The position numbers and the translations under genes were made by a program. Under the pieces are notes generated by a model. It saw only the letters and a list, made by a program, of their open reading frames with translations, ran no database searches and was not told the DNA's origin. DNA of 38,145 nucleotides, taken from positions 1-38,145 of the IMG/VR virus record IMGVR_UViG_3300034062_006228; one strand, 5' to 3'. Below are positions 13,841 through 30,053 of the stretch, one piece after another (position 1 is the stretch's first letter; each line of letters starts with the position of its first letter). The stretch is from a virus.

Positions 13841-14080
13841 ATGATACAATATATTAAAAGAAAAAGTGACAATAAGTTTCTACAATCTTTAGAAAACGAT
13901 GTTTGGGTTGATAATGTTAAAGACGCATATGAAATGACTATTATAGAGTGTAAGAATATAAAAACTGAGTTACTTAACACATATACTTCTGAAGAAATTA
14001 CTGAAGTTGTTAATATGTTTAAGAACAAACCAATGTCAAGAGAAGAGAAAAAAGAATTTCTTAAATTATTAAAGAAATAA
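13841..14080 (+). CDS. Small hypothetical protein upstream of the DNA polymerase
   Basis: A 79-residue, Lys/Glu-rich, largely helical protein that I cannot assign. The N-terminal half (YIKRKSDNKFLQSLENDVWV, then AYEMTIIEC) is a compact alpha/beta pattern. The C-terminal half ends in EEKKEFLKLLKK, a basic helix. The start is preceded by an A-run (aaaaaaaATG), usual for this genome. An 88-residue frame on the opposite strand covers nearly the same bases, but it lacks a suitable leader and is Ser/Leu/Phe-rich like an antisense shadow, so the plus strand is preferred. It may be co-transcribed with the polymerase, whose start lies 97 bases downstream beyond a large hairpin. Confidence 0.6.
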   Translation: MIQYIKRKSDNKFLQSLENDVWVDNVKDAYEMTIIECKNIKTELLNTYTSEEITEVVNMFKNKPMSREEKKEFLKLLKK

Positions 14081-14096
14081 GTTGATAACACACTTC

Positions 14097-14184
14097 GATA
14101 TCATTATACTTATAGGGATAAGGTAAATGTCATCAATAAGCATGACAGCTAATGAACCACCAAAAATATAAGTATAATGATATC
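14097..14184 (+). promoter_or_regulatory. 18-bp perfect inverted repeat burying the DNA polymerase start codon
   Basis: The arm at 14097-14114 (gatatcattatacttata) is the exact complement of 14167-14184, giving 18 uninterrupted pairs. The 3' arm contains the ATG at 14177-14179 and codons 2 and 3. The 52-base loop holds an inner hairpin, TGTCAT (14128-14133) with ATGACA (14142-14147) around eight bases, and GGT/ACC segments that may stack on it. TTGAT at 14082-14086 could pair with ATCAA in that inner loop as a pseudoknot. In mRNA this would hide the initiation site. T4 DNA polymerase represses its own translation through a hairpin at its ribosome-binding site, so a translational operator is the leading idea. 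A DNA-level site is an alternative. Confidence 0.6.
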
Positions 14185-16894
14185 TCAAGAAGAAATTAAA
14201 TCATTCTTAGAGGGTAATGACCCCGAAGAATTTATTGTAGCAGTAGAATATGATTGGGCATCCGACTCCATATTCAAAATCAAAGAAATCCCAAACAAAG
14301 GAAAAGAAATTAGAAAAGATACATTCACCCCATTCGCTTGGGTTGGTGACTTAAAGGGATTAAATTTCTACAAATCATCTAAGGCTTTACAGAAAGAAGC
14401 TATGACCAAACACGGAATCCTAATTGAGAAATTGGATACTGGTGATAATGAACGATTGGAGAATGGACTTAAGTTTATGGTTAAGTCCTTAAAAGGTTAT
14501 AGAAACCTACAACAATTTTTCAAAGAAGGTGGTGTTGATATTTGGGGTGAAAATGTTAAAGACAAAGTTTTAATGTTACCCCCAGTAGAACAATATCTAA
14601 TCCAAAAAGAAAAACGATTATTCAAAGGTTTTGAAGAATATAACGATATCACAAGATTTGGATTTGACTTGGAAACAACATCCTTAGAACCTAAGGATGG
14701 AAGAATCTTTATGATTGGGATTAAAACAAATAAAGGACTACAGAAAGTAATTGAATGTGCCAATGAAGACCAAGAACGAGCTGGACTTGCTGAGTTTTTC
14801 AGAACAATAGATGAAGTAAAACCAAGTATTATTGGGGGATATAATTCCTTCAACTTTGACTGGTATTGGATATTTGAAAGATGTAAAGCGTTACATCTTG
14901 ATGTGAAAAAGATATGTAAAACATTACATCCTGAATATAACATCAAACAATCTAGAGGAATTCTTAAACTTGGGAATGAGGTAGAAGAATTTCAACAAGT
15001 AGGAATGTGGGGATATAATGTTGTTGATATTTTACATTCAGTTAGACGTGCTCAAGCAATTAATTCAAGTATAAAATCTGCTGGGTTGAAATATATTACA
15101 CAATATATCAAAGCTGAAGCTGAAGATCGTGTTTACATTGACCATAATAAAATTGGTTCAATGTACGCAAATAAAGAAGAGTATTGGTTGAATATTAAAA
15201 ATGGTAAATATAAAAAGGCTGACAACACCCAATTTGACAATTTAGACAAAAAGTTTCCTGGTACATATATCAAAACAACTGGTGACAATATAGTTGAACG
15301 ATATCTTGATGATGACTTGGAGGAAACCTTGAAAGTGGATGAGGAGTTCAATCAAGGTACTTTCTTGTTGGCATCAATGATTCCAACAACTTATGAACGT
15401 GTATCAACAATGGGTACAGCAACTCTATGGAAAATGTTGATGTTAACTTGGTCTTATAAAAATAAATTAGCAATACCTGAAAAAGAAAAGAAAACTGATT
15501 TCGTTGGTGGATTATCAAGATTGCTGAGAGTGGGTTATTCCAAGGATGTATTAAAACTTGATTACTCTTCACTTTACCCATCTATTCAATTGGTTCACGA
15601 TGTATTTCCTGAATGTGATATTATGGGTGTAATGAAAGGTATGTTAGCTTACTTTAGGGATGCTCGTATTATGTATAAGAACTTGGCCGCTGAATGGTAC
15701 GATAAAGACAAGAAAAAATCATTGTCTTACGATAGAAAACAATTACCAATTAAGATATTCATCAACTCACTATTTGGTGCGTTATCAGCACCACAAGTAT
15801 TTGCGTGGGGTGATATGTATATGGGTGAACAGATTACTTGTACTGGTAGGCAATATCTTCGTCAGATGTTAAAGTTCTTTATGAAGAGAGGTTATACCCC
15901 ATTGGTATGTGATACGGATGGTATGAACTTCTCATTACCTGAAGGTGGTGTAGATGATAGGACTTATGTTGGTAAAGGATTGAATTGGAAAGTTAAAGTA
16001 GGTAAAGAGTACAAAGGTTATGACGCTGATGTTGCCGAGTTTAACGATACATTTATGAAAGGGGCAATGGCTTTAGATTGTGATGGTACTTGGAAATCTT
16101 GTATTAATCTTGCACGTAAAAACTATGCCACAATGGAGCATAATGGTAAAGTTAAACTTACTGGTAACTCTATCAAATCAAAAAAACTCCCACTTTATAT
16201 TGAGGATTACTTAGATAAGGCAATCAAGTTATTGTTAGAAGGTGAAGGACAACAATTCGTTGAGTGGTATTATGAATATCTTACAAAGATTTACAATAAA
16301 GAAATACCATTAATGAAAATCGCCCAAAGAGCAAAAGTAAAGCTATCAATTAAAGACTATAAAGAAAGAGCTAATCAGACTACTAAATCAGGTGGTGCAA
16401 TGTCTAGAATGGCTCATATGGAATTGGCCATCAAACACAATCTTAAAGTTAATCTTGGTGAAGTTATCTATTATGTTAATAATGGTGTTAAGGCAAGTCA
16501 CGGAGATGTTCAAAAGAAAAAAGATGAGGTTGTACTGAATTGTTATATGTTAGACCCAAATGATATTGAAAACAATCCTGATATGATAGGTGAATATAAC
16601 GTTGCAAGAGCAATAACAACTTTCAATAAAAGAATTGAGCCACTATTAATTGTATTCAAACAAGATGTCCGTGATGGATTGTTAGTTGATAATCCTGAGA
16701 AGAGAGGTTTCTTTACTAGTGGACAATGTGAACTTATAAATGGTGTACCATTCGAAGAGGGTGACCAAGATAGAATCAAAGAAGACTTGATGGATTTAGA
16801 ACCAAAAGAAATTGAGTATTGGAATAAGAGAGGTATTAATCCTAACTATATTTACGATTTGGCTGAAGAAGGATGGGAACAATATATAGATTGA
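14177..16894 (+). CDS. Family B DNA polymerase (T4 gp43-like), replicative
   Basis: A 905-residue polymerase with 3'-5' exonuclease, about the length of T4 gp43 (898). Exonuclease motifs: FDLETTS (Asp164, Glu166), NSFNFDW (Asp228) and YNVVDILHS (Asp284). Polymerase motif A: DYSSLYPS (Asp462); motif B: KIFINSLFG (Lys526); motif C: CDTDG (Asp579, Asp581). All catalytic acids are present, so both activities are predicted. Motif C reads DTDG rather than the common DTDS. No intein or split interrupts it. The start codon is in the 3' arm of an 18-bp hairpin, suggesting translational control. The ATG at 14177 lies just inside that stem and no better start is seen. Confidence 0.95.
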   Translation: MISQEEIKSFLEGNDPEEFIVAVEYDWASDSIFKIKEIPNKGKEIRKDTFTPFAWVGDLKGLNFYKSSKALQKEAMTKHGILIEKLDTGDNERLENGLKFMVKSLKGYRNLQQFFKEGGVDIWGENVKDKVLMLPPVEQYLIQKEKRLFKGFEEYNDITRFGFDLETTSLEPKDGRIFMIGIKTNKGLQKVIECANEDQERAGLAEFFRTIDEVKPSIIGGYNSFNFDWYWIFERCKALHLDVKKICKTLHPEYNIKQSRGILKLGNEVEEFQQVGMWGYNVVDILHSVRRAQAINSSIKSAGLKYITQYIKAEAEDRVYIDHNKIGSMYANKEEYWLNIKNGKYKKADNTQFDNLDKKFPGTYIKTTGDNIVERYLDDDLEETLKVDEEFNQGTFLLASMIPTTYERVSTMGTATLWKMLMLTWSYKNKLAIPEKEKKTDFVGGLSRLLRVGYSKDVLKLDYSSLYPSIQLVHDVFPECDIMGVMKGMLAYFRDARIMYKNLAAEWYDKDKKKSLSYDRKQLPIKIFINSLFGALSAPQVFAWGDMYMGEQITCTGRQYLRQMLKFFMKRGYTPLVCDTDGMNFSLPEGGVDDRTYVGKGLNWKVKVGKEYKGYDADVAEFNDTFMKGAMALDCDGTWKSCINLARKNYATMEHNGKVKLTGNSIKSKKLPLYIEDYLDKAIKLLLEGEGQQFVEWYYEYLTKIYNKEIPLMKIAQRAKVKLSIKDYKERANQTTKSGGAMSRMAHMELAIKHNLKVNLGEVIYYVNNGVKASHGDVQKKKDEVVLNCYMLDPNDIENNPDMIGEYNVARAITTFNKRIEPLLIVFKQDVRDGLLVDNPEKRGFFTSGQCELINGVPFEEGDQDRIKEDLMDLEPKEIEYWNKRGINPNYIYDLAEEGWEQYID

Positions 16895-18845: not shown

Positions 18846-20717
18846 TTAACACATAATCTCACCTTGATATTTTTTAAGGAAAGAGTCTGATATTTGTTTA
18901 TCGTTTTTAGTTAAAACGTTTGACCCATAGGTATATTTGTATGTTTCAATTTTACCATTCAAATCAAATACACGGAATCTGATTGATAATCTAAGTTCAT
19001 CACAGCCTCTTTGTCCTTTGTTTGACCAATAAAAATAAATATTATTGATTGGTACTATTATATTATTATCAAAAATAACTCCTGCAAGTTTTTCTCTAAT
19101 TTTATTAAGATACTCTTGTCCATTTTTTTTAACAAAATCATATATATGTCTAATCATTACATTATATAAGTCACTATGAGTTTGTTTAAATGTTTTCAAA
19201 GTAGATTGTTTGAAAATTGAAAAGAATTCAGATAAATAACTATCAATTTCTACGTCCATTTTTTTGACCTCAAAATGAGAATTAGCTGGGAATATTTCTT
19301 TTTGAACTAACTCACCATTAACTAATTCCTCAATATATAATGGTTCTTTACTAACTAAATCTGTTTTGATTGGTGGTATTTCACTATTTAACGAATTCGT
19401 AACGCAAGTTTTAATTTTTTTCAAAGTATTTGCAAATTCTTGTTTTTTACTTTTAACATCATCAATCATAGTGAATAAATTTGATACATCACCTGGGTCA
19501 CAAGAATAATTAAGTTCTAATTTAGTTTGTTTAATTTCAAATTGTTTACCCTCAAATGATTTTTCATATTTAGCATATTCTAATTCTCGAACTTGTCTTA
19601 AAACTTCGTTCAAATCATTACTTATAATATCTTGGTCTTTTATTTTTAATAATTTTTTCTTTACTACAGATTCTGAATAATTATCGTCAGCTATAAAATC
19701 ACTTATTATTTTTAAAAAATTTATAGTTCTATCTGAGTTTTCCCCATATAATGCAACATTAAAAATTTTTCTTAATGCTGAAGTGTTTCTAACATTAAAA
19801 AATTTAACTATTCTTTCAGTTGCATCATTTAAATCCTTAACCAATTGTTCGTCACCAATTTCATTTCTTAATTCTATTAAATCACAATACACTTTTTTAT
19901 TTTCATCAGATGTATTTTTTTTATTACAAAAATAATTTAAATAATCTTTTTCAAATTCGTTTTTATTAAACATTGACAATTGGTCATCTTCTAATAATAA
20001 CAAAAAATCTTTCTTAGTTATAGTATAAGATTCCTCAATTTTCTTTTTTGTTTTTAATTCATAAATTGAATTAACATAATCCCAATTTACAACACTCCAA
20101 AAATTTTTGATATAATCATCTCTTTTGTTTTGATATTTCAAATAATATGCGTGCTCCCATAAATCTAATCCCAATAAAGGATAACCACCACCTTCTACAA
20201 CGTTCATAAGTGGGTTATCTTGATTTGGTGTTGTCATAATCTTCAACTTGTTGTTTTTAGTTAAAACTAACCAACACCAACCTGAACCAAATCTTTCTAA
20301 TGAAATTTCTTGGAATTGTTTTTTAAAATTATTAAATGAACCAAAATCTTTATTTATTTTTTTGAGAATTTCACCTTTTAATACTTTTTTATCAGGTGTT
20401 AACATTTTCCAAAATAAAGAATGGTTAAAAGCACCACCACCATTGTTTCTAATAATTTTTGGGAATTTACTTATCTTGGTAATAATATCCTCTAACCCTA
20501 GTTCTTTGTACTCTTTTTTTGATAGAGCATCAACAAGTTTTTCAACATAACCTTTATAATGTTTGTTGTAGTGAACTTTCATTGTTTTTTCATCAATGAA
20601 TCTAGTCAGAGAGTCAAATCCATATGGTAATTTATCGATACCAATTTTTTTGGTCTCTAATAATAAGTCGTTAGTTTTTTCTAATACTTCTTGTATTAAT
20701 TTAATCCTTTTATCCAT
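18846..20717 (-). CDS. Superoxide dismutase (Fe/Mn type) fused to a large unknown domain, with putative capsid-targeting tag
   Basis: The ATG at 20717 is preferred over an upstream TTG (20744) that overlaps the helicase stop and would add nine residues. Residues 1-10 (MDKRIKLIQE) form a basic tag ending I-Q-E. Residues about 27-220 form a full Fe/Mn superoxide dismutase: LPYGFDSL, VHYNKHYKGYV, FNHSLFW, FGSGWCWLV, LDLWEHAYYLKYQN and FWSVVNWDYV. The four metal ligands are present (His49, His99, Asp185, His189), as are the gateway Tyr57 and a Mn-type Gln (Gln166 in NQDNPLM), so activity is expected, probably with Mn. Residues about 225-623 are an unrecognised Lys-rich helical domain with a beta-rich end; standard dismutases are about 200 residues. 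It lies 23 bases after the helicase gene. Confidence 0.85.
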   Translation of the reverse strand: MDKRIKLIQEVLEKTNDLLLETKKIGIDKLPYGFDSLTRFIDEKTMKVHYNKHYKGYVEKLVDALSKKEYKELGLEDIITKISKFPKIIRNNGGGAFNHSLFWKMLTPDKKVLKGEILKKINKDFGSFNNFKKQFQEISLERFGSGWCWLVLTKNNKLKIMTTPNQDNPLMNVVEGGGYPLLGLDLWEHAYYLKYQNKRDDYIKNFWSVVNWDYVNSIYELKTKKKIEESYTITKKDFLLLLEDDQLSMFNKNEFEKDYLNYFCNKKNTSDENKKVYCDLIELRNEIGDEQLVKDLNDATERIVKFFNVRNTSALRKIFNVALYGENSDRTINFLKIISDFIADDNYSESVVKKKLLKIKDQDIISNDLNEVLRQVRELEYAKYEKSFEGKQFEIKQTKLELNYSCDPGDVSNLFTMIDDVKSKKQEFANTLKKIKTCVTNSLNSEIPPIKTDLVSKEPLYIEELVNGELVQKEIFPANSHFEVKKMDVEIDSYLSEFFSIFKQSTLKTFKQTHSDLYNVMIRHIYDFVKKNGQEYLNKIREKLAGVIFDNNIIVPINNIYFYWSNKGQRGCDELRLSIRFRVFDLNGKIETYKYTYGSNVLTKNDKQISDSFLKKYQGEIMC

Positions 20718-20722
20718 AGAAC

Positions 20723-20741
20723 ATAAATATTCTATAAATAT
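20723..20741 (-). promoter_or_regulatory. Tandem ATATTTAT phage promoter-like motifs
   Basis: Two copies on the minus strand (20734-20741 and 20723-20730), ending 16 and 5 bases before the dismutase ATG. They overlap the end of the helicase gene and could let the dismutase be transcribed separately. Confidence 0.4.
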
Positions 20742-23668
20742 CAATTCAACGAATTAATCTTATTCATAATTTGTTCAATGAAGTCAGCCTTATCCAAATT
20801 ATCACCCATAACAGTATCAATTATGTTTTTCTTATTGATTAACATATCGTAAATTACACCTTCGATTGTATTCTCAAATATTGGATAGTAAACAGACACA
20901 CAATTTTTTTGACCATATCTATAAGCTCTGTCTTCAGCTTGTTGATGATGTGCAGGGACAAATGAAAGGTCATTAAATATAACCGCTTCTCCCGCGGTAA
21001 GTGTAATACCAACACCTGCGGCTTGTAGATTTCCAACAAATACTTTTACTTTATCATTATCTTGGAATTGGTCTACAGCATATTGTCTTTGAACCTTTGA
21101 ACAAGTCCCATCCAAATAAACTGCTTGTTTCCCAAAGTGGGAATGTATTTTGTGAAGTGTGTCTGTAAAGTTTGTAAAAATTATAACTTTTTTTCCTTGC
21201 TCCAAAATATTTTCAGCAACTTCAATAGTGTTAGATATTTTCTCTTCAGCAACTACTTGTCTCACTTTCATCAACTTATTAAATTGAACTGTAAGTGATT
21301 TTGATTCCTCAGGATTCTTAGAATACCAATTATAATAATCACCCATTAATTCCTCATATTGTTTAGATTTTAATCTCAAATACACAGGAGTTATAATTTT
21401 TTCAGGTAAATCTAATACCTCAGTTTTCAATCTTCTTAAGACTTGTCTTGATGTTCTATCTCTTAGTTCTTCTAAGTTTGATGCACCATTAACATTCCAA
21501 ACTTTCCTATTACCCGCTTTGAATTGATATCCTTGACAATAACGAATGACATATGCCATCCAATTTTGTGCAACAGGACTTTCGATAAGATTCAATAAAT
21601 TATAATAATTAATTGGTCTTGAGGTCATAGGTGTACCTGTTAATAACCAAAGATACTCAACATCTTTAACAAAACTATTAATTAATTTTGTACGTTGGGC
21701 TTGTGGATTTGAAATGTAGTGAGCTTCATCAATTATGATTAAGTCAAAATTACCTTTTGTAATTAAAGAGTTTTCTTTATCTTTTAAATCATAAAAGTTT
21801 TTTAGGATATCATAGTTTACAATTACAAAATCGTGTTTTGTTGAGAAGTTTTTACCTTCACAAATATAAACACTTCTATCTGTATAATTTCTTATTTCCC
21901 TTTCCCAATTTATCTTCAGTGAAGCGGGACATATTATTAATATTTTTTTTGCATTTGTTTCTAGTGCCGCTAAAATAGTTGATGTTGTATTGTGAGTTAC
22001 GATAGCATTTTCTGTAATATATAATTTGTCTGGTGCATCAACTGAAATACATATAGCTTCACCTTTTTTTTCAAACTCTATATTTTTGATGTATCGTCCT
22101 ACCTTGTATTTTTTAGGTGTGTTATATTGTTCTTCTTTTCTTTTAAGTTTGAATGGATTCATACCTTCAGGTAATTTGATATTCACTCTGTAAGATTTTT
22201 GTCCATCTTTTTTAGTTCCTTTATATGTATATTTTGTTGTTCTTGATTTTTTTCTTGCTATACCACCCAAACTATGTACTATTTCAATAACATCGTCACA
22301 AAGTTGTTCTGACACAGTTGAGAATTCAGTCCCACTAAAATTACCATCAGTATCTTTACGACAACTACCATCAGTATCCATTAAACCTTTGAGTATTTTT
22401 AATCTATTTTCAACAGAAGTGTATTTGAATATATTTGGAATAAATTTGTTATAGGATTTAGTTCCCATTAATTTTAGTTGTTTCAAAACTTGAATTAACG
22501 GATTTAAATGACCACTAATTTTTGTTAATCTATAACCATATTTTGTACCTCGGCTCTCAACTATTTGAGTGTTATGTGGTAATGTGTCTCTAATATAGTC
22601 AACGATTTCTGAGTCAGCTGTTGTAAAATGAACTGAATCTTTACTAATCCCTCCATCACCTATAATTAACCCCAATAAATATGGGTTTATGGGTAAAGGA
22701 TTATTTACGAATTCGATTGGTTTTACAATTGGAATTTGCCATTTGTTGTTACCATCGTTTTCTTTGTAGTATGTTTTGTACTTGTAAATTTTGTTTATAT
22801 TGTTTTTAGTACCATTTATTTCTAAACTTAAATTTTTATCTAACATCTGTTCTACAGACAAAACAATCCCCTTTTTTTCTCTTTTATTTTTACTATTTTC
22901 ACCAAATGTTCTAGATTTGACACTAAAAAGATGTTCCTTACAGACTAATACTGATGTATTGTCATTGAATGTTACTCGGTATAAATCTTTAACTCCTTGT
23001 GGATATACACCAAGAACATTACATTTTTTACCATCACTACCAATAACTTCATCACCAACTTTCAATTCACCTATTGGTTTTCTTCCATATGGTGTAAAAA
23101 CCTTGTTTTCTATAAACTCCGCTTTACCCAAACCCATATCGTCAGCCAAAATAAACTTCTTACTACCAACCAATTTTTCAATTGCAATTTTTTGATGGTC
23201 AAGAGGAGGTCTATGATTATATTTGGAGTAGTCAATTTTTACTTCAATAGTATTATGAGTTTTAAGTAATGCCGCTTTTGGTAACCACATATCAGTTAAT
23301 GTGTCACCGGTGTTAAACTTACCCCAAATGTGATAAGATTTATCTTTATCAACTAATAATTTTTCAACCCATATGTCAGTTGGTACAACTAACATATTTT
23401 TTTCATCTGCAATTTTTTTTGCAAAGTAAGGTTCTATGTTGACCCACTTCTTGGCAACCTTTGGTTCAACTGAATTATAGTTAATAATATATTCAGCTTG
23501 TGAACGTGTGGGATAGAACTTTTTGTTAGTTTCTTTTAGATATTTCAATTTCAGAATATAATTGTTGTGACCATTATATTCATCTAAAATGTCTATAGCT
23601 TTTAGTTCTAGTAGATTTAATGTGTTACCTGATAAACTCAAAACAATTTTTAATATAAAAATAGTCAA
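20741..23668 (-). CDS. SNF2-family helicase/ATPase interrupted by an intein
   Basis: The mature protein (about 597 residues after removing 378 intein residues) is an SF2/SNF2-type ATPase. It has HQKIAIEKL, Walker A DDMGLGK|TTST (interrupted after Lys182), LIIIDEAH (DEAH box), LLTGTPMTS, and the C-terminal lobe with GVGITLTAGEAVIFNDL and QAEDRAYRYGQ. Such enzymes translocate on duplex DNA; in a phage this suggests replication-fork remodelling or recombination, a role T4 gives to UvsW. Without splicing the P-loop is broken, so the enzyme depends on the intein. No ATG lies near the N-terminus: TTG at 23668 is used, with TTG at 23641 (giving MSLSGNTLNLLEL) an equal or better candidate. First gene of the minus-strand block, divergent from 23688. 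Confidence 0.9.
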   Translation of the reverse strand: MTIFILKIVLSLSGNTLNLLELKAIDILDEYNGHNNYILKLKYLKETNKKFYPTRSQAEYIINYNSVEPKVAKKWVNIEPYFAKKIADEKNMLVVPTDIWVEKLLVDKDKSYHIWGKFNTGDTLTDMWLPKAALLKTHNTIEVKIDYSKYNHRPPLDHQKIAIEKLVGSKKFILADDMGLGKAEFIENKVFTPYGRKPIGELKVGDEVIGSDGKKCNVLGVYPQGVKDLYRVTFNDNTSVLVCKEHLFSVKSRTFGENSKNKREKKGIVLSVEQMLDKNLSLEINGTKNNINKIYKYKTYYKENDGNNKWQIPIVKPIEFVNNPLPINPYLLGLIIGDGGISKDSVHFTTADSEIVDYIRDTLPHNTQIVESRGTKYGYRLTKISGHLNPLIQVLKQLKLMGTKSYNKFIPNIFKYTSVENRLKILKGLMDTDGSCRKDTDGNFSGTEFSTVSEQLCDDVIEIVHSLGGIARKKSRTTKYTYKGTKKDGQKSYRVNIKLPEGMNPFKLKRKEEQYNTPKKYKVGRYIKNIEFEKKGEAICISVDAPDKLYITENAIVTHNTTSTILAALETNAKKILIICPASLKINWEREIRNYTDRSVYICEGKNFSTKHDFVIVNYDILKNFYDLKDKENSLITKGNFDLIIIDEAHYISNPQAQRTKLINSFVKDVEYLWLLTGTPMTSRPINYYNLLNLIESPVAQNWMAYVIRYCQGYQFKAGNRKVWNVNGASNLEELRDRTSRQVLRRLKTEVLDLPEKIITPVYLRLKSKQYEELMGDYYNWYSKNPEESKSLTVQFNKLMKVRQVVAEEKISNTIEVAENILEQGKKVIIFTNFTDTLHKIHSHFGKQAVYLDGTCSKVQRQYAVDQFQDNDKVKVFVGNLQAAGVGITLTAGEAVIFNDLSFVPAHHQQAEDRAYRYGQKNCVSVYYPIFENTIEGVIYDMLINKKNIIDTVMGDNLDKADFIEQIMNKINSLN
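21989..23122 (-). other. Intein with LAGLIDADG homing endonuclease in the helicase Walker A motif
   Basis: Codons 183-560 of the host frame. The N-splice block begins Ala-Glu-Phe-Ile rather than Cys or Ser. Block B has CKEHLFSV (His246). Two LAGLIDADG motifs, LLGLIIGDGG (Asp338) and LKGLMDTDGS (Asp433), with a KFIPNIF block between them, indicate an active homing endonuclease. Block F reads EAICISVD with Cys540 at the F:4 position, and the end is VTHN followed by Thr561. Missing Cys1, Cys at F:4 and Thr at +1 are the marks of class 3 inteins, which splice through a branched intermediate on the F:4 Cys. The usual Trp of block B is Phe248 here. Inserted between Lys and Thr of GKT, a typical ATP-site target. 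Confidence 0.9.
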
Positions 23669-26406: not shown

Positions 26407-29400
26407 ATGTCTAACAGTAAAGTATTTGTATCACCTGGTGTTTACACTTCAGAAGTGGACTTGAGTTTTGTATCTCAAAGTGTGGGTGTAACAACTTTAG
26501 GTATTGTTGGTGAAACTTTGAAGGGACCTGCTTTCGAACCAATTTTTATCACAAACTTCGATGAGTTTACAGCTTACTTTGGTGGAACTTCTCCTGAGAA
26601 ATTCATTAACACTCAAATTCCAAAATATGAAGCAGCATATATTGCTAAATCATATTTACAACAATCAAATCAACTATTCGTAACAAGAGTTTTAGGTCTT
26701 TCTGGTTATGATGCTGGACCTTCTTGGTCAATTACAACAGTTGCTAACGTTAACCAATCAACAGTTGGTTTTGAATGTACTAGTTCCTCAACTGTTAATT
26801 GTGTAACTCAATGTGTTCAATTTAATGTAGTACCTTATACAATTGATTTCACTGGTTGTACTAATAATCTTAATTCTATAGGATATAGTAATTTTAATAG
26901 TGCCGACATAATTGTTCCTGACTTATATAGTACATACGAACAATTTAATGGTTCTACATCAACTATTGATACAGATTTAAGAACACAAATTTTCAGTATT
27001 TTAAATACACCAGCTAATTCAGGATTTTCAATTAATTATTTTGGTGTTATTTCTGGTGAGACTTATGATAGTTTATCTGCTTATACTGCAAGTACAAATG
27101 TATTTGGAGTTGATAATGTAAGTTCTACATTAGCTGATTATACAGCTTCGGCTAATGACCCTTGGTATTATGCAACATTTGATAACATTGGTAACAATCA
27201 ATACACTGGTTATTCTTTCTATAATGTTGTTAGTAGTTTAACACAAACATCATCATTGTCAAATTGTGCATCTTTTTATAGTTATTCAGTTAGTTCATCA
27301 ACAATCAGTACAGTTGCTGGGTCAATTAATTATAATACAAATGTGATTAATATTTGTCTTCCTTCTACAGCAACAACTGCGGACACAACGGCAATGACAA
27401 TTAATTTCAGTGCTTGCACTAATCCAACGTTAAGTGGTATAACAAGTGGTGGTATAGTACAATCTGCAACAACAACTGGATATAATTTTAGTTCTTTAAC
27501 AAAATCATACACGATAATATCTGATGATTTATCAGCAACTTCAGCTTGGACAGTTAACTTACTTTTCACTGACCCTTGTGGTCTTTGTGCAACAGGGAAT
27601 ACTGGAACAATACAGACTGGTACAACGACAACTTGTTTCTCAGGAACAATAAGTGGTCAAACTTTTGTTTATACTGGTGATTCATATTCAAATTACGATG
27701 ATTTAGTAATAGCAACTTTAAGATCAAGAGGTTTGGCAACATATTCAACTGACGATGGTGCTGTATATGAAGTACAAGATTTAAATGATGTAACAATGGA
27801 TTGTACTGGAACTTATTCAGGTGTTACTAAAAATCCTTTTGCACCATTTGGTTTAAATGTTACAAATAAAGATGGACAGAATTTCTTCTTTGAAACTTCT
27901 TTCTTGAACTCAGATGTAAATTATATATCTAAAGTTTTTGGTCAATCTAACTTTGGTAAACCAAGAACTGTTGTACCTTTATTTGTTGAGGAAAGATTCC
28001 AATCTTTATTAACTTATGCTTATCGTAAAGGTTATATTAGAGGTTTGAATTGTAACTTAGTTGCGTTACCTGATGCAAGACAAGGATTAGATGCAACATC
28101 GATTGCTTGGTATCTAGAAAGATATCAATCACCAACATCACCTTGGGTTGTTTCTGAATTAAGAGGTAATAAAGTGTTTAACTTATTTAAGTTTACAACA
28201 ATTGCTGATGGGGATGCCGCAAATACAGAAGTTAAAATTTCAATTGCAAATATTTCATTTAACAATGGTACATTTGATGTATTAGTTAGAGATTTCTTTG
28301 ATGGTGATGCTAACCCAGTTGTAATTGAAAAATTCACTAATTGTTCTATGAACCCAGGTGAAAACAACTTTATCGCAAAGAAAATCGGTACAACTGATGG
28401 TGAATACCAATTGAATTCTAAATACATTATGGTTGAGATAAATGAGGATGCTCCAATTGACGCTTTACCTTGTGGTTTCTTAGGATTCACAATGAGAGAA
28501 TACGCCGGTGCAAAACCACCATTCCCAATTTATAAAACAAAATACGATTTCCCTGGTGAAGTAGTTTATAATCCACCTTTCGGATTAACTTCAGGTGCTG
28601 ATGATGCTTTGTTAAGTTCAGGTGACAATCCAAGAAGAGTATATTTGGGTATTTCAGATGAAATCGGATATGATGTTGATTTCTTTACATATAAAGGTAA
28701 AGTTCTTCCAACTGATGTTTGTAACGATACAACAGGTTCTGATTGGAATTATAGAACTCGTGGATTCCATATGGATAAAAATGCAAGTGGAATTACAATT
28801 CCGAATGCTTTTGTAACAAGTGGTACTTCAGCTTTCTTCGTTGGTTCTGCTGAATTTACTTCTGACCCAACATCAGAAACAAATCCATACTACAGACTAT
28901 TTGCTCGTAAGTTTACGCTATTATGTCAAGGTGGTTTTGATGGTTGGGATATTTATCGTGAGTATAGAACTAACCAAGATAGATTTGTATTGGGTAGAAC
29001 TGGTTACCTTAAAGGTGCTTGTACTTCGTTCAGATATCCAAATGCAACTGGTTGGGGTGCGTTCAAACGTATAACTGTTGGTAATAACACACAAGATTTT
29101 GCAAATACTGACTATTACGCTTACTTGTTAGGACAACAAACATTCTCAAATCCTGAAGCGGTTAATATAAATGTGTTTGTAACACCTGGTATAGATTATG
29201 TAAATCACTCAAATCTTGTAGAAGCTGCGATAGAAATGGTTGAGTTTAATAGAGCTGACTCAATTTATATCTGTACAACACCTGACTATAATATGTTTGT
29301 ACCATCAACTGGTGACCAATTAGATGTAATTTATCCACAAGAAGCTGTTGATAACTTAGAAGAAAGTGGAATTGACTCTAACTATACTGCAACATATTAT

Positions 29401-29997
29401 CCTTGGGTTCTTACGAGAGATACGGTTAATAATACACAAATCTATATTCCTGCAACAGCGGAAGTTTGTAGAAACTTGGCATTAACTGATAACATTGCTT
29501 TCCCTTGGTTTGCTGCGGCAGGTTACACTCGTGGTCTTGTTAATGCTGTCAAAGCGAGAAGAAAACTTACTCAAGAAGATAGAGATACTCTTTATAAAGG
29601 AAGACTTAATCCAATTGCAACTTTCTCGGATGTGGGAACAGTAATTTGGGGTAACAAAACTCTACAAATAAGAGAATCAGCATTAGATAGAATTAATGTA
29701 AGAAGATTGTTACTACAAGCAAGAAAACTTATATCTGCGGTTTCAGTTAGATTGTTATTTGAACAAAATGATGAAAAAGTAAGACAAGATTTCTTAGACG
29801 CAGTTAATCCAATTTTAGATGCGATTAGAAGAGATAGAGGTTTATACGATTTCCGTGTAACAGTTTCATCTGATACTGCCGACTTAGATAGAAATCAAAT
29901 GACAGGTAAGATTTATATCAAACCTACAAAATCTTTAGAGTTTATTGATATAACATTCTATATAACTCCAACAGGTGCATCATTCGAAAATATCTAA
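26407..29997 (+). CDS. Contractile tail sheath protein (T4 gp18-like) with a large surface insertion
   Basis: The N-terminus FVSPGVYTSEVDLS, then GIVGETLKGPAFEP and FDEFTAYFGG, is diagnostic of myovirus tail sheaths. The C-terminal domain (DRINVRRLLLQARKLISAVS; FLDAVNPILDAIRRDRGLYD; TGKIYIKPTKSLEFIDITFY) is the conserved sheath-contraction domain. At 1196 residues it is far longer than T4 gp18 (659). Residues about 115-430 form an added Ser/Thr/Asn-rich domain with many Cys residues (CTSSSTVNCVTQC; CGLCATGNTG), placed where gp18 carries its protruding outer domain. It would decorate the outside of the tail. Motifs resume at DDLVIATLRSRG (about 437). It has its own promoter-like motif and is followed by a very strong terminator. 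Confidence 0.95.
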   Translation: MSNSKVFVSPGVYTSEVDLSFVSQSVGVTTLGIVGETLKGPAFEPIFITNFDEFTAYFGGTSPEKFINTQIPKYEAAYIAKSYLQQSNQLFVTRVLGLSGYDAGPSWSITTVANVNQSTVGFECTSSSTVNCVTQCVQFNVVPYTIDFTGCTNNLNSIGYSNFNSADIIVPDLYSTYEQFNGSTSTIDTDLRTQIFSILNTPANSGFSINYFGVISGETYDSLSAYTASTNVFGVDNVSSTLADYTASANDPWYYATFDNIGNNQYTGYSFYNVVSSLTQTSSLSNCASFYSYSVSSSTISTVAGSINYNTNVINICLPSTATTADTTAMTINFSACTNPTLSGITSGGIVQSATTTGYNFSSLTKSYTIISDDLSATSAWTVNLLFTDPCGLCATGNTGTIQTGTTTTCFSGTISGQTFVYTGDSYSNYDDLVIATLRSRGLATYSTDDGAVYEVQDLNDVTMDCTGTYSGVTKNPFAPFGLNVTNKDGQNFFFETSFLNSDVNYISKVFGQSNFGKPRTVVPLFVEERFQSLLTYAYRKGYIRGLNCNLVALPDARQGLDATSIAWYLERYQSPTSPWVVSELRGNKVFNLFKFTTIADGDAANTEVKISIANISFNNGTFDVLVRDFFDGDANPVVIEKFTNCSMNPGENNFIAKKIGTTDGEYQLNSKYIMVEINEDAPIDALPCGFLGFTMREYAGAKPPFPIYKTKYDFPGEVVYNPPFGLTSGADDALLSSGDNPRRVYLGISDEIGYDVDFFTYKGKVLPTDVCNDTTGSDWNYRTRGFHMDKNASGITIPNAFVTSGTSAFFVGSAEFTSDPTSETNPYYRLFARKFTLLCQGGFDGWDIYREYRTNQDRFVLGRTGYLKGACTSFRYPNATGWGAFKRITVGNNTQDFANTDYYAYLLGQQTFSNPEAVNINVFVTPGIDYVNHSNLVEAAIEMVEFNRADSIYICTTPDYNMFVPSTGDQLDVIYPQEAVDNLEESGIDSNYTATYYPWVLTRDTVNNTQIYIPATAEVCRNLALTDNIAFPWFAAAGYTRGLVNAVKARRKLTQEDRDTLYKGRLNPIATFSDVGTVIWGNKTLQIRESALDRINVRRLLLQARKLISAVSVRLLFEQNDEKVRQDFLDAVNPILDAIRRDRGLYDFRVTVSSDTADLDRNQMTGKIYIKPTKSLEFIDITFYITPTGASFENI

Positions 29998-30014
29998 TAT
30001 TTTGAGTCAATAAT

Positions 30015-30043
30015 AAAAAGGGGAGAATTGTTCTCCCCTTTTT
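30015..30043 (+). terminator. Strong intrinsic terminator after the tail sheath gene
   Basis: AAAAAGGGGAGAA (30015-30027) pairs perfectly with TTCTCCCCTTTTT (30031-30043) around a three-base loop. Thirteen pairs with a G/C core end in a T-run, and the A-run makes it bidirectional. It isolates the sheath message from the HAD gene. Confidence 0.85.
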
Positions 30044-30053
30044 ACATATTAAT

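Follow-up and report, generated by a model that had tools for sequence, protein, structure and literature searches.

What does a long inverted repeat do at the very start of a phage DNA polymerase gene? The window analyzed here is itself a virus record of 38,145 bases, in which a pair of 18-nt arms encloses the leader of a gene for a family B DNA polymerase (Table 1). The original prediction described the arms as a hairpin over the start codon, likely an autoregulatory operator or RNA switch. The arms at 14097–14114 and 14167–14184 are exact reverse complements lying 52 nt apart, and the 3′ arm contains the ATG (14177–14179) together with the bases that follow it, just as had been described. 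The motif does not recur elsewhere in the window when up to three mismatches are allowed. It is unlikely to have arisen by chance; when the whole window was simulated 100 times with a first-order Markov model, a perfect inverted repeat of length at least 18 within 100 nt turned up once. The region is also predicted to fold stably as a single strand with proteins left out and with arms that are A+T-rich (14070–14220, z = −4.2, with none of 200 dinucleotide shuffles reaching so low an energy; 14082–14200, z = −5.7).

Table 1. Positions of the polymerase gene, its leader elements and the preceding reading frame in the window.
Feature	Position	Strand	Basis or remark
Upstream co-directional ORF, 79 aa; likely read-through source	13841..14080	+	
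−33 promoter element, GTTG (TTTG in most relatives)	14081..14084	+	
Outer stem, 5′ arm	14097..14114	+	exact inverted repeat; cognate-arm pairing tests
−7 promoter element TATACTTA, inside the 5′ arm of the 18-bp stem	14105..14112	+	relatives' consensus TATAYTTA
Predicted transcription start (+1), ±1 nt, 3′ of the entire 5′ arm	14117	+	inferred from −7 position
RNA core, 40 nt	14120..14159	+	compensatory changes; covariance model 50 bits
P1, GGU/ACC	14122-14124/14156-14158	+	core helix
Core left loop, AAA	14125-14127	+	
P2, six pairs	14128-14133/14142-14147	+	
P2 loop	14134-14141	+	
Core right loop, GCUAAUGA	14148-14155	+	
Outer stem, 3′ arm, over translation start region and ATG	14167..14184	+	
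DNA polymerase, family B, 905 aa	14177..16894	+	phrog_262 E 2e-53; PF00136 and PF03104

To learn which part of this structure is conserved, 80 viral relatives of the polymerase were fetched and their leaders compared. The element AA-GGU-AAA-(stem-loop)-GCnAAUnn-ACC-A is present in all 76 near relatives whose upstream DNA is complete, and in the window it corresponds to the interior of the long hairpin. The six-pair hairpin that had been noted within the 52-base loop (14128–14133 with 14142–14147) exists and belongs to this conserved part as P2. It is joined to a three-pair helix, P1, by an asymmetric, A-rich internal loop. Among 40 distinct cores of the near clade, 96.4% of pair cells are standard and five of the nine pairs show two-sided changes, with a covariation score of 0.52 compared to 0.02–0.22 when the partners are slid. 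The core is also found in a more distant clade of polymerases, which share about 59% identity with the enzyme of the window, and there P1 changes in concert (GGG/CCC at 37 loci, GGU/ACC at 27 and GAG/CUC at 11); GAU/AUC is found in two further leaders (L018 and L019). Across both clades (41 distinct cores), 97.8% of the cells of the nine pairs are paired and the covariation score rises to 0.762, against 0.05–0.15 for slid partners, with P1 paired in 100% of cases through GC, AU, UA and GU. Of the alignment columns, eight do not vary at all, and six of these fall within the internal loop, whose left side contributes two A and whose right side contributes G..AAU. The P2 loop varies in sequence and length among relatives, and the core lies 8–20 nt from the AUG, its last pair standing 18 nt before the AUG in the window.

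These data are strong evidence that the core is under selection as an RNA structure. Because the RNA expected from the gene's own promoter is not unusually stable in the window (z 0.0), the case for the core rests on covariation and not on energy. The suggestion of a regulatory RNA at the polymerase start is thus supported by compensatory changes in relatives, with the correction that the conserved element is the core rather than the long stem. The suggested check was to look in related phages for compensatory changes in the stem and for conservation in the loop; compensatory change is strong, and the supposed loop (14120–14159) proved to be the sequence-conserved element, more strongly conserved than the 18-bp stem around it.

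The outer stem is nevertheless conserved as a pairing. Several loci were represented by near-identical contigs, which were collapsed before the tests. Tabulating box position 5 base by base against the 3′ arm gave no information owing to A-richness, and we therefore turned to swapping arms between leaders. We compared 39 representatives that share less than 80% similarity: the mean energy of pairing is −8.2 kcal/mol for cognate arms and −5.0 kcal/mol for swapped arms (z −10.4), and the effect is present in both segments of the arm (box part, z −6.1; proximal part, z −5.2). Since relatives share ancestry, the comparison was repeated within 40 phylogenetically independent pairs drawn from the polymerase tree. 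Swapping costs 3.7 kcal/mol on average, with cognate arms favored in 31 pairs and swapped arms in 7 (Wilcoxon p 2e-5; box p 0.002, proximal p 0.001), a result that relies on one tree and one energy model. Some leaders have weak outer stems (L044, L077 and L032). The arms differ in both sequence and length, for example TTTATTTAC/GTAAATAA, ATTGTAG/CTACAAT and AAATTAAACTT/AAGTTTAATTT, and the pairs adjoining the core are GUC/GAC in some and GUU/AAC in others. A stem of exactly 18 bp is therefore peculiar to a small subclade, in which the arm matches the conserved coding start ATGATATC as well. The original prediction centered on the long stem, of which the pairing is conserved but the exact length is not, other relatives having outer stems that differ in length and sequence. 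G-U outnumber A-C combinations by 44 to 18 in the outer stem and by 40 to 30 in swaps, a modest excess that gives weak support to action as RNA.

The 5′ arm also overlaps a promoter. The distance from the start of TTGA to that of TAnnYTT is 22–23 (that is, TTTG-N19/20-TAnnYTT) in 100 of 109 non-redundant leaders, compared to a mean of 1.3 after shuffling. The Bacteroidetes promoter consensus is TTTG/TANNTTTG, and its −7 element occupies −12 to −5 in F. johnsoniae (PMC6847099). The spacing of the Bacteroidota sigma-ABfr pattern, TTTG - 19 nt - TAnnTTTG, recurs here as 19 or 20 nt in these same 100 leaders. The −7 box of most leaders is relaxed to TATAYTTA, the exact TAnnTTTG being present in L062 and L077, and the window's TATACTTA differs from TAnnTTTG at two of the six positions that hardly vary. 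Placing the −7 element as in F. johnsoniae (PMC6847099) puts the predicted +1 of the window at 14117, and in most relatives it falls 4–5 nt 5′ of P1. The 5′ arm holds the −7 box and the predicted +1 lies downstream of it; therefore, an mRNA made from the polymerase's own promoter should not include the 5′ arm and, as modeled, should keep the core and an open start codon. A pseudoknot between the loop and bases 14082–14086 had also been proposed. These bases belong to the −33 element, upstream of the predicted +1, and the P2 loop is unconserved in relatives, both of which speak against it. The same promoter is found elsewhere in relatives, 24–30 nt before a Nudix-like ORF and before a small ORF, with neither core nor hairpin at these sites. 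In the subclade leaders L120, L115, L139 and L130, and in L450 and L455, the −7 box is displaced upstream by about 6 nt or more, and there a three-pair helix adjoining the core (GAG/CTC, GTC/GAC or GTT/AAC) would, on the same model, be part of the own-promoter mRNA.

The polymerase gene could also be reached by transcription from upstream. The gene preceding the polymerase is co-directional in 34 of 36 relatives, and in the window the stop codon of the 79-aa ORF (14078–14080) is followed directly by the −33 element. The window's upstream cluster encodes a tail fibre protein, glycosyltransferases and hypothetical proteins; the tail fibre and glycosyltransferase genes look late rather than early. 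The start region (−8 to +9) is predicted to be unpaired with a probability of 0.30 in the read-through RNA and 0.65 in the own-promoter RNA, and to be less unpaired in the former in 38 of 39 leaders. Shuffling the 5′ flank brings the predicted value to 0.48. In the window the AUG itself is predicted to be paired with probability 0.999 in read-through RNA. The proposal that an RNA fold blocks initiation is therefore consistent with the predicted hiding of the start in read-through RNA. However, it would apply to that mRNA only, as the gene's own transcript is predicted to lack the 5′ arm.

On balance, we favor a two-layer cis-regulatory leader for this phage replicative DNA polymerase gene. In the first layer, the 5′ arm of the hairpin carries the promoter −7 box and the 3′ arm carries the translation start, so that read-through transcripts from the upstream gene, containing both arms, would fold and go untranslated. 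Transcripts from the gene's own promoter would begin at about 14117, without the 5′ arm, and leave the start open. In the second layer, this own-promoter mRNA would begin 4–5 nt before the core of P1, internal loop and P2. A factor acting in trans (most likely a protein, perhaps the polymerase itself) could then bind the invariant internal loop (AAA opposite GnnAAUnn) and, once bound, compete with the ribosome.

The first layer resembles an arrangement known from T4. In T4 gene e, longer transcripts fold, whereas those that start at embedded late promoters are missing the 5′ portion and are translated well; the leaders of I-TevI and mobE follow the same promoter-in-hairpin logic (PMC3014915, PMC2988022). 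Here too, as in T4 gene e, I-TevI and Aeh1 mobE, a promoter element (the −7 box) lies in a 5′ arm that is kept complementary to the 3′ arm, and a co-directional gene lies upstream. By prediction, the likeness extends to an own-promoter RNA without the arm and a read-through RNA, but not an own-promoter RNA, that hides the start. Unlike in T4 gene e and I-TevI, the gene encodes a replicative DNA polymerase rather than a lysozyme or homing endonuclease, the promoter is of Bacteroidota type with presumably no use of Shine-Dalgarno sequences, and the upstream genes look late where those of T4 are early. A conserved structured core fills the loop here, a feature that the cited passages describe for none of the T4 cases.

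The core is tied to a single gene. A covariance model finds one strong match in the window (50 bits, next best 13). In 27 viral records, which range up to 222 kb, it likewise finds exactly one apiece, the runner-up scoring at most 22 bits; no second copy is present in the window or its relatives. A motif-first scan of IMG/VR returned at least 120 pattern matches, at least 88 of them above 36 bits. Among the 88 such matches listed, 87 lie directly upstream of this polymerase and the position of the other runs off a contig end. The remaining 32 matches listed score below 29 bits or have no reported score, and none precede this polymerase. In bacterial and archaeal genomes pattern matches occur at chance level and none lies before a related polymerase; of 120 in bacterial genomes, the best of the 80 scored with the model reaches 31 bits, which is chance level for preselected matches. 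The core is also absent from five loci of protein relatives with about 25% identity. Rfam 15 gave no match at gathering score and, with relaxed thresholds, chance-level matches only. We found no report of the motif in open-access full text, where the core appears to be a previously undescribed folded RNA element; a prior listing in the supplement of a survey is possible.

The original prediction drew a parallel to T4-family polymerases that repress their own translation. By sequence search the enzyme is not recognizably of the gp43 type. With phmmer against the PDB it matched archaeal PolB, Pol epsilon and DNA polymerase II, but not RB69 or T4 gp43 at E 0.001, and its nearest solved relatives are archaeal family B enzymes. 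The gp43 operators of T4 and RB69 share a conserved UAAC/CAAC/UAAA hairpin loop (PMC3014915). That loop is absent here, where the internal loop is conserved and the P2 hairpin loop varies. The two systems are alike in having an RNA hairpin just 5′ of the start of a phage family B DNA polymerase, at one dedicated site. The autogenous pseudoknot operator of T4 gene 32 is also comparable as a structured leader near the start of a replication protein, in this case for a different gene and with a pseudoknot that is not conserved here. We conclude that the core probably serves as a translational operator. Given that it occurs once per genome and only in linkage with this gene, the polymerase itself is, by analogy to T4 gp43 (PMC3014915), the first candidate ligand. 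Our more specific proposal remains tentative: the core may be the earliest known example of a class of structured RNA that is new, a dedicated sensor of the replicative polymerase (or of a replication-linked ligand) inside a promoter-embedded silencer of read-through. If so, polymerase supply would be gated both by the promoter of origin and by feedback on the RNA.

Other assignments of the core have to be weighed against this one. That the core is an operator serving another phage protein, or a ribosomal or RNA-binding protein of the host, instead of the polymerase is unlikely yet credible, as a covarying, gene-specific core would suit any dedicated RNA-binding protein. Counting against it is a resemblance that failed to hold up: the core looks like GG-AUAAC-stem-GCUAAUACC of 16S helix 8, but the core model finds nothing there in a complete Emticicia 16S locus. 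The single site per genome likewise differs from the behavior of a general regulator such as RegA, which has about 30 targets in T4 (PMC3014915). The core might instead sense nothing and act as a 5′-terminal stem-loop that stabilizes or enhances the mRNA. Hairpins at the 5′ terminus can protect mRNA from decay, and the core lies 4–5 nt from the predicted +1 in most relatives. This is improbable given that stability does not require a near-invariant internal loop and that even the weak 3-bp P1 is kept through compensatory changes. A riboswitch, with the core as a small-molecule aptamer (for a nucleotide, for example) and the outer stem as expression platform, would have the ligand stabilize P1 and the outer stem and thereby hide the start. 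Like riboswitches and other Rfam families, the core is a compact structure of a 5′ leader that covaries and retains conserved unpaired bases; its internal loop is enclosed by covarying helices, it is contiguous with the outer stem in read-through RNA, and that stem ends at the start codon. However, such a platform needs the 5′ arm, which the promoter overlaps in 100 of 109 leaders, with the predicted +1 only 4–5 nt before P1. Riboswitches usually occur on several genes of one pathway, whereas one gene per genome, and one gene type, carries this small core, for which Rfam 15 has no match. We consider a riboswitch quite doubtful.

The outer repeat, for its part, could work as DNA, either as a repressor operator or as a cruciform at the promoter. 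The 5′ arm does overlap the −7 box, the G-U excess is modest, and I-TevI offers a precedent in a DNA operator that overlaps its late promoter (PMC2988022). Yet the arm sequences differ freely among clades while their complementarity is kept, which is not expected of a sequence-specific operator. A spacing of about 70 nt between half-sites would be unusual too, and the pairing runs on to the RNA core; we regard action as DNA as a rather poor prospect. Chance complementarity of A+T-rich sequence is highly improbable: both arms are A+T-rich and even swapped arms reach −5 kcal/mol, but the permutation z of −10.4 and the independent-pair p of 2e-5 argue firmly against it.

Translational control of phage DNA polymerases has been worked out for T4-like phages, from a few operators that do not occur throughout that group. 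Here, a covarying RNA element without an Rfam entry lies 5′ of the polymerase in every relative examined from a large uncultured phage group, and its consensus is sharp enough for a direct test for a binding partner. The two-layer leader that we favor would extend the promoter-in-hairpin logic of T4 to an essential replication gene, and to phages of presumed non-Shine-Dalgarno hosts, in which start-site accessibility is one determinant of initiation. Should the polymerase prove to be the ligand, autogenous control would have evolved a second time on an operator whose architecture is unrelated to the first.

The phages concerned are a large, uncultured group, probably with hosts among the Bacteroidota, a host call taken solely from the promoter type. 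No nucleotide relatives of the window were found among cultured phages, and the closest cultured relatives of the polymerase share only about 25–30% protein identity. Despite this lack of a close cultured polymerase relative, a glycosyltransferase (885–2135, + strand) is 45–47% identical to those of the large phages XacN1 (Xanthomonas) and CM1/RAS14 (Stenotrophomonas).

Other features were noted elsewhere in the window. An ORF at 20741–23668 (− strand) encodes an SNF2-type helicase with SNF2-related and Helicase_C domains. It is split by an insert that resembles an intein and carries domains of LAGLIDADG homing endonucleases; where this ORF matches 'terminase' in PHROG, the matches fall on the insert region and are probably intein-derived. 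The neighboring 632-aa ORF (18846–20744, − strand) holds a complete Fe/Mn superoxide dismutase in residues 1–225, and its remaining ~400 residues are unmatched. In a 1196-aa ORF (26407–29997, + strand) the last 300 residues are a tail sheath, while the first roughly 900 have partial matches only, mainly to Microcystis phage Mel-JY01 and to one uncultured phage. Just 3′ of this ORF, a perfect 14-bp inverted repeat with a 3-nt loop (30014–30044, + strand; TAAAAAGGGGAGAA/TTCTCCCCTTTTTA) is probably an intrinsic terminator.
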